Shown piece after piece: positions 8,400 to 26,718 of a stretch of DNA of 36,582 bases. The position numbers and the translations under genes are program-made. The notes under the pieces are model-generated. The model saw only the letters and a program-made list of their open reading frames with translations. It was not told where the DNA came from and did not search any database. Within the stretch, counting starts at the first letter, position 1. Every line of letters begins with the position of its first letter. The stretch comes from a bacterium (GTDB lineage Bacteria > Actinomycetota > Acidimicrobiia > Acidimicrobiales > RAAP-2): contig DAHXOD010000004.1 of NCBI GenBank assembly GCA_027365055.1, forward strand, positions 1 through 36,582. The letters run 5' to 3'.

Positions 8400-9704
8400 T
8401 CAACCAGTCGGGGACGCCCCGGTGAACGTCGCATAGTCGCCGTCGCCGTTCACGACCATACAGAACCGAGACGAGCTGCACGAGACGGTGGTGCCGATGC
8501 CCGGGTAGGTCGTCGGGGGAGGAAGGACACGTACGGGTGGCGACCATGTGCTGCCGTTCCACGACACCACGTCGCCACTGGTGTCGGCCGCCATGCAGAA
8601 GGCGGGGGTCGGGCACGAGATGGAGTCGAGCGATCCTCCGGGGTCGACGGCCTGAGGCGCGGCCCACGGGGTGGACCACCCCCCGTTGCGATAGGTGACC
8701 ACTGACCCGCTCACGATGGCGCAGAGGGTCGCGGTCGGACACGAGAGTGCGGAACCGCTGACCACGCCGGGGGAGGGCCAGGGGGTCGGCAGCCGTGACC
8801 AGGAGCTGCCATCCCAGTTGATCACCGTGGCACCGACCACCGCAGTGCACGAGGTGGGAGAAGGGCACGAGATGCCCACCCGTCCCGGTGCGTAGAGCGC
8901 GACCGGGGCGGGTGGGGAGGGAGAGGCGGTGGCGGGCTCGGTGAACGATCGGGTCGGGAGCCAGCGACCATGGGACCAGGTCCAGACCTGCCCGGTGTTG
9001 TCGACGAGGGCACAAAAGTGAGCGGTCGGACACGAGACGCCGATGGATCGTGCCCCGGGCGTCCCGGGGCCGGGATCTGCCGGGTTCGGGGCCACGGACG
9101 GCGCAGCCGGGAGGGGTACCGCGGTGATCCAGTCGGTCCCGTCTCCGTTGGTCACCATGCCGGTCGCCTCGGCGACCACACAGAACGGTCCTTCCGTGCA
9201 GGTGACGGTAGGCAGCACCGGCCAGGAACCGGACGACGATGCCGGCGGCGGGAACGCCACACTGGGGGCTGACCAGGACTCCCCGTCCCATGACTCGGTC
9301 AGACCGGCTCCGGTGGTCTGCGCCTGGTTCGCCCCGCCTCCGGCAGCGATGCAGAAGGTGTCGGACAGGCACGAGACCGAGGTCAGGCCACCTGGTGGCG
9401 GTAGCGTGTTGAGGGCGACCGACCACCCGGGGGCCTGCGTAGGGACGGCGATGGCGGGCGCCGTCGACTGGGTCGGACGGGGCGCCGTCGACTGGGTCGG
9501 ACGGGTCGCCGCCGGTGGGCCGGTCGGGGCCGAAGCGATCGCGGCGGCGGCACTGGCGGTGGTGCGATGACCGGCGACCTGCCGGGCCGGACGCTGGTGG
9601 CGCGTGACCGCCGTGTGCACCGAGGGGGAACCACCCGAGCACCCGACAGCGCCCAACAGTACGAAGGTCAGCGCGACCCCTCTGGCGACTCGTCTCTGAT
9701 CCAT
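8400..9704 (-). CDS. Putative lipoprotein with seven CX5C repeat modules (candidate beta-propeller)
   Basis: MDQRRVARGVALTFVLLGAVGCSGG: signal peptide with lipobox-like LGAVGC; then seven modules SCLSDTFC, TCTEGPFC, SCPTAHFC, SCPSPTSC, SCPTATLC, SCPTPAFC, SCSSSRFC, several with 'W(D/N)GxxW' between them. Confidence 0.75.
   Translation of the reverse strand: MDQRRVARGVALTFVLLGAVGCSGGSPSVHTAVTRHQRPARQVAGHRTTASAAAAIASAPTGPPAATRPTQSTAPRPTQSTAPAIAVPTQAPGWSVALNTLPPPGGLTSVSCLSDTFCIAAGGGANQAQTTGAGLTESWDGESWSAPSVAFPPPASSSGSWPVLPTVTCTEGPFCVVAEATGMVTNGDGTDWITAVPLPAAPSVAPNPADPGPGTPGARSIGVSCPTAHFCALVDNTGQVWTWSHGRWLPTRSFTEPATASPSPPAPVALYAPGRVGISCPSPTSCTAVVGATVINWDGSSWSRLPTPWPSPGVVSGSALSCPTATLCAIVSGSVVTYRNGGWSTPWAAPQAVDPGGSLDSISCPTPAFCMAADTSGDVVSWNGSTWSPPVRVLPPPTTYPGIGTTVSCSSSRFCMVVNGDGDYATFTGASPTG
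9457..9504 (-). repeat. Perfect 24-bp x2 tandem duplication in the lipoprotein linker
   Basis: ggcgccgtcgactgggtcggacgg repeated twice; encodes (RPTQSTAP)2. Confidence 0.95.
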
Positions 9705-9744
9705 CACCTGATCCGACCCCCGTCGATGCGCCTTGACCGATGCG

Positions 9745-9750
9745 AGGCTA
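9745..9750 (-). promoter_or_regulatory. Putative -10 element (TAGCCT) for the minus-strand lipoprotein gene
   Basis: Reverse complement of aggcta; predicted TSS near 9738, 35-nt leader to ATG 9704. Confidence 0.4.
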
Positions 9751-9780
9751 ACGACGGACGGCCCGACTGTCCATGTTGGC

Positions 9781-9847
9781 CGGTTCCGACAGGAGCGTCG
9801 GCTGCCGGCGCGATCGCCCTCCGGTCCCGACGGGAGCGTCGGCTGCC
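9781..9847. promoter_or_regulatory. Two 26-bp direct repeats (41-bp period), each with dyad CCGAC-N6-GTCGG, in the divergent pdxS promoter region
   Basis: cggttccgacaggagcgtcggctgcc (9781-9806) versus cggtcccgacgggagcgtcggctgcc (9822-9847): 24/26 identical. Confidence 0.8.
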
Positions 9848-9889
9848 CTTGCTCGGAGGGAGACAACCCGCCGACGGTAGAGTGGGTGC

Positions 9890-10858
9890 ATGAGCGATGG
9901 ACCCGAACGTGGAGCTGTGGATCATGGACCGGATCGATCGGGATCCGACGCCCTGTCGACGCCCGGCACGGCCGACGGGGTGGCCGTCACCGGCACCCTG
10001 ACCGTGAAGCGAGGCCTGGCCGACATGTTGCGTGGCGGCGTGATCATGGACGTCGTGGACGCCGAGCAGGCCAAGGTGGCTGAAGACGCCGGAGCGGTGG
10101 CGGTGATGGCCCTCGAGCGGGTCCCATCGGACATCCGTCGAGACGGAGGCGTGGCCCGGATGAGCGATCCGGAGATGATCGAGGGCATTCAACAGGCCGT
10201 CACCATTCCGGTGATGGCGAAGGCACGCATCGGCCACTTCGCCGAGGCGCAGGTGCTGGCGTCACTGGGCGTCGACTACATCGATGAGAGCGAGGTCTTG
10301 ACCCCCGCCGACGAGGCGCACCACATCGACAAGTGGACGTTCGAGATCCCCTTCGTCTGTGGTGCGACCACGCTCGGGGAGGCGCTGCGGCGGATTTCGG
10401 AAGGGGCGTGCCTGATCCGCTCCAAGGGCGAAGCCGGGACGGGCAATATCGTCGAAGCGGTTCGACACCTCCGTTCCATCCTCGGTGACGTCCGGCGGAT
10501 CACCCAGGCGGACCCGGCCGAGCAGTACGCCTGGGCCAAGCAGCTGGCGGCCCCGATCGACCTGGTACGGGAGATCGCCGCCACCGGCCGGCTCCCGGTC
10601 CCACTGTTCTGTGCCGGAGGCATCGCCACCCCGGCCGACGCGTCCCTGGTGATGCAACTCGGTGCGGAGGCCGTGTTCGTCGGCTCGGGCATCTTCAAGA
10701 GCGCCGACCCGGCACGTCGGGCGAGCGCCATCGTCGAAGCGACCGCCCATTACGCCGATGCAGCGTTGGTGGCCAAGGTGTCCACTGGCCTGGGAGAGGC
10801 GATGGCCGGTCAGGAGATCGCCTCGCTCGAGGTTCACCTGGCAGACCGTGGCTGGTGA
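9890..10858 (+). CDS. pdxS: Pyridoxal 5'-phosphate synthase subunit PdxS
   Basis: [95 protein letters not shown]. Confidence 0.97.
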
Positions 10859-10888
10859 GTGGGCGGTCGCCGCTCCGGGTGCGCCGGC

Positions 10889-11470
10889 GTGACGATCGGC
10901 GTGCTCGCGCTCCAGGGTGACGCGCGCGAGCACACGGCGGCGTTGGCCGATCTGGGTGAAGGGTCGAGGCCGGTTCGCACCCCCGGCGATCTGGACGGCT
11001 TGAGTGGTCTGGTGCTTCCTGGTGGCGAGTCCACCACGCTGTCGATGCTGCTGGAGTCGTCCGGGCTCTTCGATCCCCTGTCCGGAGCGTTGCGGGCCGG
11101 GCTGCCGGCGTTCGGAACGTGCGCCGGAATGATCCTGCTGGCGTCGACGGTGCTCGACGGGCGCAGCGACCAGCGCCGTTTCGGGATGATCGATCTCACG
11201 GTCCGGAGGAACGGCTACGGTCGGCAGGCGGCTTCTTTCGAGAAGGAGCTGTCGGTGTCGGGGTTCGACAGCCCGGTCCCCGCCGTGTTCATCCGTGCTC
11301 CGGTCGTCGAGACCGTCGGACCTGACGTGGACGTGCTCGCGTGCCTCGACGGGGCTCGTCCGGTGCTCTGCCGTCAAGGACGGGTGCTGGTGTCCGCGTT
11401 CCATCCGGAGCTGACCTCGGACCGGCGGCTCCACCGGATGTTCGTGGCGATGACCAAGACCGAGTGCTGA
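10889..11470 (+). CDS. pdxT: Pyridoxal 5'-phosphate synthase glutaminase subunit PdxT
   Basis: IGVLALQGDAREHTAAL; LPGGESTTLSMLLE; FGTCAGMILLA (nucleophile Cys); GTG start 10889. Confidence 0.93.
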   Translation: MTIGVLALQGDAREHTAALADLGEGSRPVRTPGDLDGLSGLVLPGGESTTLSMLLESSGLFDPLSGALRAGLPAFGTCAGMILLASTVLDGRSDQRRFGMIDLTVRRNGYGRQAASFEKELSVSGFDSPVPAVFIRAPVVETVGPDVDVLACLDGARPVLCRQGRVLVSAFHPELTSDRRLHRMFVAMTKTEC

Positions 11471-14877: not shown

Positions 14878-14949
14878 GTGGACCTGGACGTGGACATCGA
14901 CATGAACATGGACGTGGACATGGACATGAACATGGACATGGACTCGATG
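14878..14949 (+). repeat. GACATG/GACGTG hexamer-type array at the 5' end of queA (in-frame start codons)
   Basis: gtggacctggacgtggacatcgacatgaacatggacgtggacatggacatgaacatggacatggactcgatg; encodes VDLDVDIDMNMDVDMDMNMDMDSM. Confidence 0.9.
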
Positions 14950-17181: not shown

Positions 17182-17904
17182 GTGCAGCCCACCCCCTCCC
17201 TCCACCATTCGCTGACGGCCGCCTTGTCGGGCGCAGCGGGTCGCGTCTCCACCCTGGCGGCCGCCGCCCCGAAGAAGACCAGCGGGTCGAGCGGCACCGT
17301 CCTGCTGCTGGTGGTGATCGCGGCCGGGTTCTACTTCCTCATCCTGCGGCCACAGCAGCAGAAGGCGAAGCGGCAACGGACCCAGGTCAGCCAGTGGGAG
17401 GTCGGTGACGAGGTACTGACCGCCGGCGGCATCGTGGGGCACATCCTCGATATCGAAGACGACCGGGTGACCATCGAGACCAGTGTCGGCGCGTCGTTCG
17501 TGGTGCTCCGCCAGTACATCATCCGCAAACTCGACTCCGCTCCTTCGGTTGGCCTGGACGGCGGCGAACTGGGGCTTCACCACGGCGACCAGGGGTTTCA
17601 CGACGGTGAGGCGGACGAGCACGACGAGGACGAGGACGAGGACGACGAGGACGAGCACGACGAGGACGAGGACCGCTCGGACGATCGGGAAGCGGTGTCC
17701 GGCCGCACCGAGGGGAGCGACGGGAACCGTGACCACGGGGACGACGGGGACGACACTGGCGGTCGGGGAGACGACGGACATGGAGTGGATGACGATGATG
17801 ACGACGCAGGGGGGGCTGTCGGCGGACACGCCGGGGGGGAACCCGAAGGCGGTGGCGACGGGAGGCCCGGTGGTCGCGGTCGCGGCTGGAAGCGAAGGGG
17901 CTGA
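17182..17904 (+). CDS. yajC: Preprotein translocase subunit YajC with a long acidic C-terminal tail
   Basis: LLLVVIAAGFYFLILRPQQQKAKRQRTQVSQWEVGDEVLTAGGIVGHILDIEDDRVTIE, followed by a D/E/H/G-rich tail; located directly upstream of secD. Confidence 0.88.
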   Translation: MQPTPSLHHSLTAALSGAAGRVSTLAAAAPKKTSGSSGTVLLLVVIAAGFYFLILRPQQQKAKRQRTQVSQWEVGDEVLTAGGIVGHILDIEDDRVTIETSVGASFVVLRQYIIRKLDSAPSVGLDGGELGLHHGDQGFHDGEADEHDEDEDEDDEDEHDEDEDRSDDREAVSGRTEGSDGNRDHGDDGDDTGGRGDDGHGVDDDDDDAGGAVGGHAGGEPEGGGDGRPGGRGRGWKRRG

Positions 17905-24895: not shown

Positions 24896-26718
24896 CCGCC
24901 AACTCTGGAGCGCTCGGCGTCACGTCGATGCGGACCCATCTCTGCGGGCGGGTCGCCATCTCCGACGTGGGCACCGCCGTCCGGGTCTGTGGCTGGGTGG
25001 CCAAACGCCGTGAGCACGGCGAGCACCTGGCGTTCATCGACCTGCGCGACCACACCGGCATCGTCCAGTGCGTGGTCCCGGGCACGGTGGACGTCCGCAG
25101 CGAGTACGTGCTCGCGATCGAAGGCGTGGTCCGACCTCGCCCCGAGGGGACGGTCAACCCGGACCTTCCCACTGGGATGGTGGAGCTCGGGGAGTGCTCG
25201 GTGACCGTGCTGGCATCGGCCGACCCGCCACCGTTCGTGGTCGAGGACCGGGTGGAGGTCGACGAGGGGATCCGGCTCAAGTACCGCTATGTCGACCTGC
25301 GGCGCCCCCGGATGCAGGCGAACCTGCGCCTGCGGGCCGCAGTGAACGGCGCGCTCCGGGCGGCCATGGATCGTCAGGGCTTCGTGGAGGTCGAGACCCC
25401 GCTCCTGTGGGCGCCCACGCCCGAGGGCGCTCGGGAGTTCGTCGTCCCGAGCCGCCTCCACCATGGCTCGTCCTACGTGCTGCCCCAGAGCCCGCAGTTG
25501 GCCAAGCAGCTCCTGATGGTGGCCGGTGTCGACCGCTACTACCAGATCGCCCGTTGCCTGCGCGACGAGGATCTCCGAGCCGACCGCCAGTTCGAGTTCT
25601 CCCAGCTTGACATCGAAGCGTCGTTCGTCACTCAACCGGACATCCTCGGCTTCGTCTCCGAAGCGGTGCTCGATGGCGCCGAGGCGGCGACCGGCGAGCG
25701 ACCGGGTTCGATCGAAACGATGACCTGGGCCCAGGCCATCGACCGGTTCGGTACCGACAAGCCCGACCTGCGATTCGGAATGGAGCTGATCGACCTTTCG
25801 GCGGTCTTCGAGGGCACCGAGGTGAAGGCGTTCGGTGCACCGTGCGTCCGTGCCATCGTGCTCCCGGGGGGCGCCACGCTCTCTCGGTCGCGGCTCGACA
25901 CTCTCACCGACCGGGCCAAGGCGATGGGCGCCAGGGGTCTGGCCTGGTTCCGGGTGACAGACGGTGAAGGCGAGGGCGCCGGCAACGGCGGCGGTGCCGG
26001 CAACGGTGGCGGTGCCGGCAACGGTGGCGCTGTCGGGCTCGACTCGCCGCTCGACCGGTTCCTGTCCGAGGACGAGCGGTCGGGCTTGCTGGCCGGCACC
26101 GCGGCCCAGGCCGGAGACCTGGTGCTGGTGGTGGCAGACGAGTACCGGTTGGCCTGCACCGTGCTCGGCCAGCTCCGTGTGGAGCTGGCCGGTCGGCCGG
26201 TCTCCGAAGGTCCCTATCGGTACGTGTGGGTGGTCGACTTCCCGATGTTCGACGGTGTGGACGGCGCCGGTCACCCGGTTGCGGCCCATCACCCGTTCAC
26301 CATGCCCCATCCCGACGATCTCGACCGGCTCGAAACAGACCCGCTCTCGGTCCGCTCCCAGGCCTATGACCTGGTGCTCAATGGATGGGAGCTCGGGTCG
26401 GGCAGCGTCCGGATCCATCGGGGCGACATCCAGGGCCGGGTGTTCGCCGTGCTCGGGATCAGCGAGGAGGAGGCGGAGTCTCGCTTCGGGTTTCTGCTCG
26501 GGGCGTTCCGCTACGGAGCACCTCCTCACGCCGGCTTCGCGGTAGGGATCGACCGGCTGGCCGCCATCTTCGCCGGCGAGGACAGCATCCGCGAAGTGAT
26601 CGCGTTCCCCAAGACCCAGTCGGGTTCCGACCCGATGACCGGCGCTCCGAAGCCGGTGTCCCCCGGCACCCTCGCCGAGCTCGGAGTGCGCTCGGTCGCG
26701 GTACCGGCCCAGGGCTGA
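24892..26718 (+). CDS. aspS: Aspartyl-tRNA synthetase (with a Gly/Asn-rich insert in the GAD region)
   Basis: EHLAFIDLRDHTGIVQCV; LPQSPQLAKQLLMVAGVDRYYQIARCLRDEDLRADRQFEFSQLDIE; GAFRYGAPPHAGFAVGIDRL. Confidence 0.96.
   Translation: MTANSGALGVTSMRTHLCGRVAISDVGTAVRVCGWVAKRREHGEHLAFIDLRDHTGIVQCVVPGTVDVRSEYVLAIEGVVRPRPEGTVNPDLPTGMVELGECSVTVLASADPPPFVVEDRVEVDEGIRLKYRYVDLRRPRMQANLRLRAAVNGALRAAMDRQGFVEVETPLLWAPTPEGAREFVVPSRLHHGSSYVLPQSPQLAKQLLMVAGVDRYYQIARCLRDEDLRADRQFEFSQLDIEASFVTQPDILGFVSEAVLDGAEAATGERPGSIETMTWAQAIDRFGTDKPDLRFGMELIDLSAVFEGTEVKAFGAPCVRAIVLPGGATLSRSRLDTLTDRAKAMGARGLAWFRVTDGEGEGAGNGGGAGNGGGAGNGGAVGLDSPLDRFLSEDERSGLLAGTAAQAGDLVLVVADEYRLACTVLGQLRVELAGRPVSEGPYRYVWVVDFPMFDGVDGAGHPVAAHHPFTMPHPDDLDRLETDPLSVRSQAYDLVLNGWELGSGSVRIHRGDIQGRVFAVLGISEEEAESRFGFLLGAFRYGAPPHAGFAVGIDRLAAIFAGEDSIREVIAFPKTQSGSDPMTGAPKPVSPGTLAELGVRSVAVPAQG
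25970..26035 (+). repeat. In-frame (GCCGGCAACGGTGGCGGT)n repeat inside aspS
   Basis: Encodes GEGAGNGGGAGNGGGAGNGGAVG. Confidence 0.9.

Follow-up and report, generated by a model that had tools for sequence, protein, structure and literature searches.

A lineage-specific direct-repeat pair upstream of pdxS in an acidimicrobial genus: putative operator or short duplication

The intergenic region between pdxS and its divergent neighbour, in a 36,582-nucleotide stretch of an acidimicrobial genome (contig DAHXOD010000004.1, hereafter the window), contains a pair of 27-bp direct repeats with a related but altered counterpart in a single congener, G003 (MAG FK3.bin95, contig JAJYYG010000159.1). The reading preferred here, in which we place about even confidence on sequence grounds, is that the repeats form a lineage-specific pair of putative binding sites recognised by a single sequence-specific DNA-binding protein. 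Within the reach of the tests made here, the putative regulator is probably not of the MocR/PdxR type, and since only one other known species has a related pair in the corresponding position, the pair is probably an ordinary local binding site.

The features of the region are as follows.

8400-9704, minus strand: divergent gene, a predicted lipoprotein with repeated SCP..FC motifs (ORF list; no Pfam family; G003 homologue 61% identical)
9745-9750, minus strand: predicted -10 TAGCCT of the divergent gene (sequence alone; no consensus promoter found)
9780-9806, plus strand: direct repeat copy 1, CCGGTTCCGACAGGAGCGTCGGCTGCC (repeat search; sole occurrence in the genome assembly)
9786-9801, no strand: dyad CCGAC-N6-GTCGG in copy 1 (pattern search; G003 pair without the dyad)
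9821-9847, plus strand: direct repeat copy 2, CCGGTCCCGACGGGAGCGTCGGCTGCC (repeat search; sole occurrence in the genome assembly)
9827-9842, no strand: dyad CCGAC-N6-GTCGG in copy 2 (pattern search; G003 pair without the dyad)
9878-9883, plus strand: pdxS -10 box TAGAGT (TAnnnT 6-7 nt before the start codon in 30/30 pdxS loci)
9890-10858, plus strand: pdxS (SOR/SNZ family), pyridoxal phosphate synthase subunit (Pfam PF01680, E 2.6e-102)
10859-11470, plus strand: pdxT (SNO family), listed ORF with the family match from 10892 onward (Pfam PF01174, E 3.7e-51)

The repeats and the pdxS promoter

The two copies agree at 25 of 27 positions and have a period of 41 bp (repeat search). An earlier note on this DNA had located and spelled them correctly, though its unit of 26 bp was one base short, and its 41-bp period and paired dyads were both borne out. 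Among 3000 first-order Markov sequences made for the 186-bp intergenic region, the best pair of 27-mers matched at 22 positions and 25/27 was never reached; the pair stands far above chance in its own intergenic region, which counts in favour of an operator. The exact element has these two copies in the 1.72-Mb assembly, itself 64% complete, and the rest of that assembly is at background level. Pairs matching at 25 or more of 27 positions within 200 bp were found at 21 places in 377 kb of the same genome, and in three of these, the pair upstream of pdxS among them, the period is not divisible by 3. The pdxS-upstream pair is no artefact; it is unusual, not singular.

Counted by eye, the 14-nt stretches 3' of the two copies match at only 2 of 14 positions, so the arrangement is not a plain 41-bp tandem duplication, and the divergence of the spacer beside units that are still 25/27 alike again favours an operator. 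Neither this period nor that of the G003 pair (64 bp) is divisible by 3, which sets both pairs apart from coding repeats. The earlier description of a non-coding, operator-like pair in the divergent intergenic region is supported, and one congener has a related pair.

Several other repeats occur in the window. The lipoprotein gene has an exact 24-bp tandem duplication (9456-9503) in its opening proline/serine/threonine-rich part; eleven 15-bp periods at 555-767 encode Gly/Lys-rich five-residue repeats (e.g. AGYKG) in a protein that matches TPR weakly; and 12-bp repeats at 14879-14938 encode an Asp/Met/Asn-rich stretch (DLDVDIDMNMD...) in an open frame just upstream of queA homology, where the Pfam match runs from residue 130. 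Repeats of 18 bp at 25962-26033 give a Gly/Ala/Asn-rich run in the GAD-domain region of an aspartyl-tRNA-synthetase-like protein, and at 17600-17671 there are repeats in the acidic, Asp/Glu/His-rich tail of a YajC-family protein.

Each of the 30 pdxS loci, across the genera of the order, has a TAnnnT box followed after 6-7 nt by a usable start codon, and the box nearly always reads GTAnnnT; the script took the start codon at which the box fits and is therefore biased toward a match, and the GTAnnnT alignment is regular nonetheless. Because box and spacing are so regular across these genera, the pdxS mRNA is very probably leaderless, with its transcription start site (TSS) at or adjoining the ATG at 9890, the position that had been proposed earlier and that the conserved box supports. 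With GTAGAGT six bases before the ATG, pdxS resembles the leaderless TANNNT promoters of actinobacteria (PMC3160421, PMC3898074), and in this respect it shows no difference from them and is ordinary. The repeats lie upstream of this TSS and hence outside the leaderless mRNA, a further point for an operator. The TSS at 9738 suggested for the divergent gene did not fare as well: it depends on TAGCCT, which found no independent support, and in G003 another gene, for a DUF1015 protein, takes the directly divergent position. Scans for sigma-70 promoters and terminators found nothing.

Relatives and the altered pair in one congener

The region upstream of pdxS could be read in 29 relatives, comprising three congeners (G003 included), 21 other members of the family and five of the order; a further congener, G001, was left out because a contig end cuts its pdxS. 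No similar element was present upstream of pdxS in 28 of the 29, two congeners among them, which weighs against an operator. General conservation among relatives was therefore not borne out, and the absence of the repeats from close relatives, which the earlier note had taken as telling against its own proposal, is largely what was found, tempered by a related but altered pair in one of the three testable congeners.

That one exception is G003, with 87% identity to the window in PdxS and 61% in the lipoprotein. Its pdxS intergenic region carries CCGGTGAGGAGACGGCTGCC twice, as a perfect 20-bp direct repeat in the same orientation as the window pair. A search of 11.7 kb of the orthologous G003 contig found no other direct repeat, and a 20/20 pair never arose in 3000 Markov sequences of the G003 intergenic region; both findings speak for an operator. 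When the units of the two species were delimited separately, both proved to start with CCGGT and to end with CGGCTGCC, giving 5 + 8 matching end bases. Shared unit ends, place and orientation argue for homology of the two pairs, and the common ends also favour an operator. Against an operator, the G003 unit is 7 bp shorter and has no CCGAC-N6-GTCGG dyad, so the dyad does not hold up as a conserved feature, and in a plain local alignment of the G003 unit to the window's intergenic region, with no fixed ends, the similarity is weak, matched by about 5% of random 20-mers.

The spacing differs as well. In G003, 82.5 bp separate the centre of copy 2 from the pdxS ATG downstream, and 42.5 bp separate that of copy 1 from the ATG of the divergent DUF1015 gene; the corresponding distances in the window are about 56 bp and a claimed 55.5 bp. 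This mismatch between the genomes, which affects both flanking starts, counts against an operator. The earlier placement of each repeat at -55.5 from its TSS is correct as arithmetic to 9890 and 9738, but the symmetric geometry built on it is unsupported and is not kept in G003. At 10.5 bp per turn, the periods of 41 and 64 bp correspond to 3.90 and 6.10 turns, so that both would place the copies on roughly one face of the DNA, a regularity that is only suggestive.

The DUF1015 gene of G003 (Pfam PF06245) separates the lipoprotein gene from pdxS, to which it is directly divergent. It was not found in the window's own 64%-complete assembly, being either lost or missing from that assembly, and it is present elsewhere in the genome in the three other congeners. 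No such repeat was found in the DUF1015 upstream regions of other genomes. Beyond the DUF1015 position the order is alike in the window and G003, with the lipoprotein gene followed by enoyl-CoA hydratase and luciferase-like monooxygenase genes.

Searches for further sites gave no indication of a regulon: in the genus as a whole, both GGAGN0-4CGGCTGCC and CCGGTN0-20CGGCTGCC were at or below the reversed-pattern control, which again argues against an operator. Individual matches were set aside. The match to the 27-mer in G004, inside a coding frame adjoining a CO-dehydrogenase-like protein, was taken as chance; two GGAGACGGCTGCC matches elsewhere in the window's own genome are apparently within coding sequence; matches to the G003 20-mer elsewhere in the family are scattered singles; and a two-copy match to it in G103 belongs to a 36-bp tandem array with a period divisible by 3.

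Operator, duplication and other explanations

If the repeats are an operator, one sequence-specific protein would bind both copies between pdxS and the divergent gene. With the copies about four helical turns apart (six in G003), it could bind twice on roughly the same DNA face, and such binding may have a cooperative effect at the leaderless pdxS promoter, perhaps also at the divergent one. We infer the binding itself, the sign of regulation and any action on the divergent gene. No candidate regulator gene for the repeats was identified, which counts against an operator.

The regulator suggested earlier by analogy, a PdxR/MocR protein controlling pdxST, would fit the published arrangement to some extent. 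In published MocR sites, two or three helical turns separate the direct repeats, which often lie within a pdxR-pdxST divergon (PMC5320631), and the pair described here shares with the PdxR operators of Corynebacterium glutamicum and Bacillus clausii (PMC5320631) the one-face direct repeats upstream of pdxST with a divergent gene beyond. The period here, in contrast, is four or six turns (41 or 64 bp), the usual divergon is missing, the divergent gene being no regulator (a predicted lipoprotein, or DUF1015 in G003), and the genome has no further sites. Moreover, reading of translated frames in five genus genomes (the window's own assembly at 64% completeness, three congeners at 94-96%) turned up no MocR/PdxR-type protein. 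Because all 19 GntR-domain hits are without an aminotransferase domain, a PdxR/MocR regulator in the genus is very unlikely, and the explanation of the pair as a PdxR operator may be regarded as mostly refuted and highly improbable. Control at the RNA level, with the repeats as hairpins (GGAG in the loop) in an upstream pdxS leader or an antisense transcript, appears improbable too: the window units could fold into a 5-bp stem closing a 6-nt loop that contains GGAG, but the repeats lie upstream of the primary pdxS TSS, which is at the ATG, the G003 unit lacks the stem, and no Rfam match appeared at E up to 5 in 9400-10100. Single-strand folding with DNA parameters was no better than for shuffled sequence, a result that is also counted against an operator. 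Like REP-like dispersed palindromic elements, the unit is a short dyad-bearing intergenic repeat; many copies would be expected of such an element, whereas the assembly has just two exact ones.

The main rival, which we consider quite possible, is that the pair is a recent, functionless and non-tandem short duplication, produced by template switching or slippage where the intergenic sequence evolves fast. Absence from 28 of 29 relatives is as this would predict, and the copies are near-identical within each genome, whereas the length and core of the unit vary from one genome to the other, as would follow from repeated fresh duplication. Similar non-coding-type pairs occur, besides, about once per 125 kb here and once per 70 kb in G003. 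Harder to reconcile with duplication alone are the unit ends common to two species, in the same orientation at an orthologous place, and the spacers that diverged while the units did not.

Possible meaning for vitamin B6 synthesis

The broader proposal that a lineage-specific, PdxR-independent regulator controls vitamin B6 synthesis in the genus through two phased copies of a fast-changing putative operator is doubtful at present. If the pair is not an operator, the locus is an ordinary one, with a leaderless promoter for pdxS and a short repeat confined to the lineage. If it is, vitamin B6 synthesis in a poorly studied actinobacterial lineage would be under a non-PdxR regulator.
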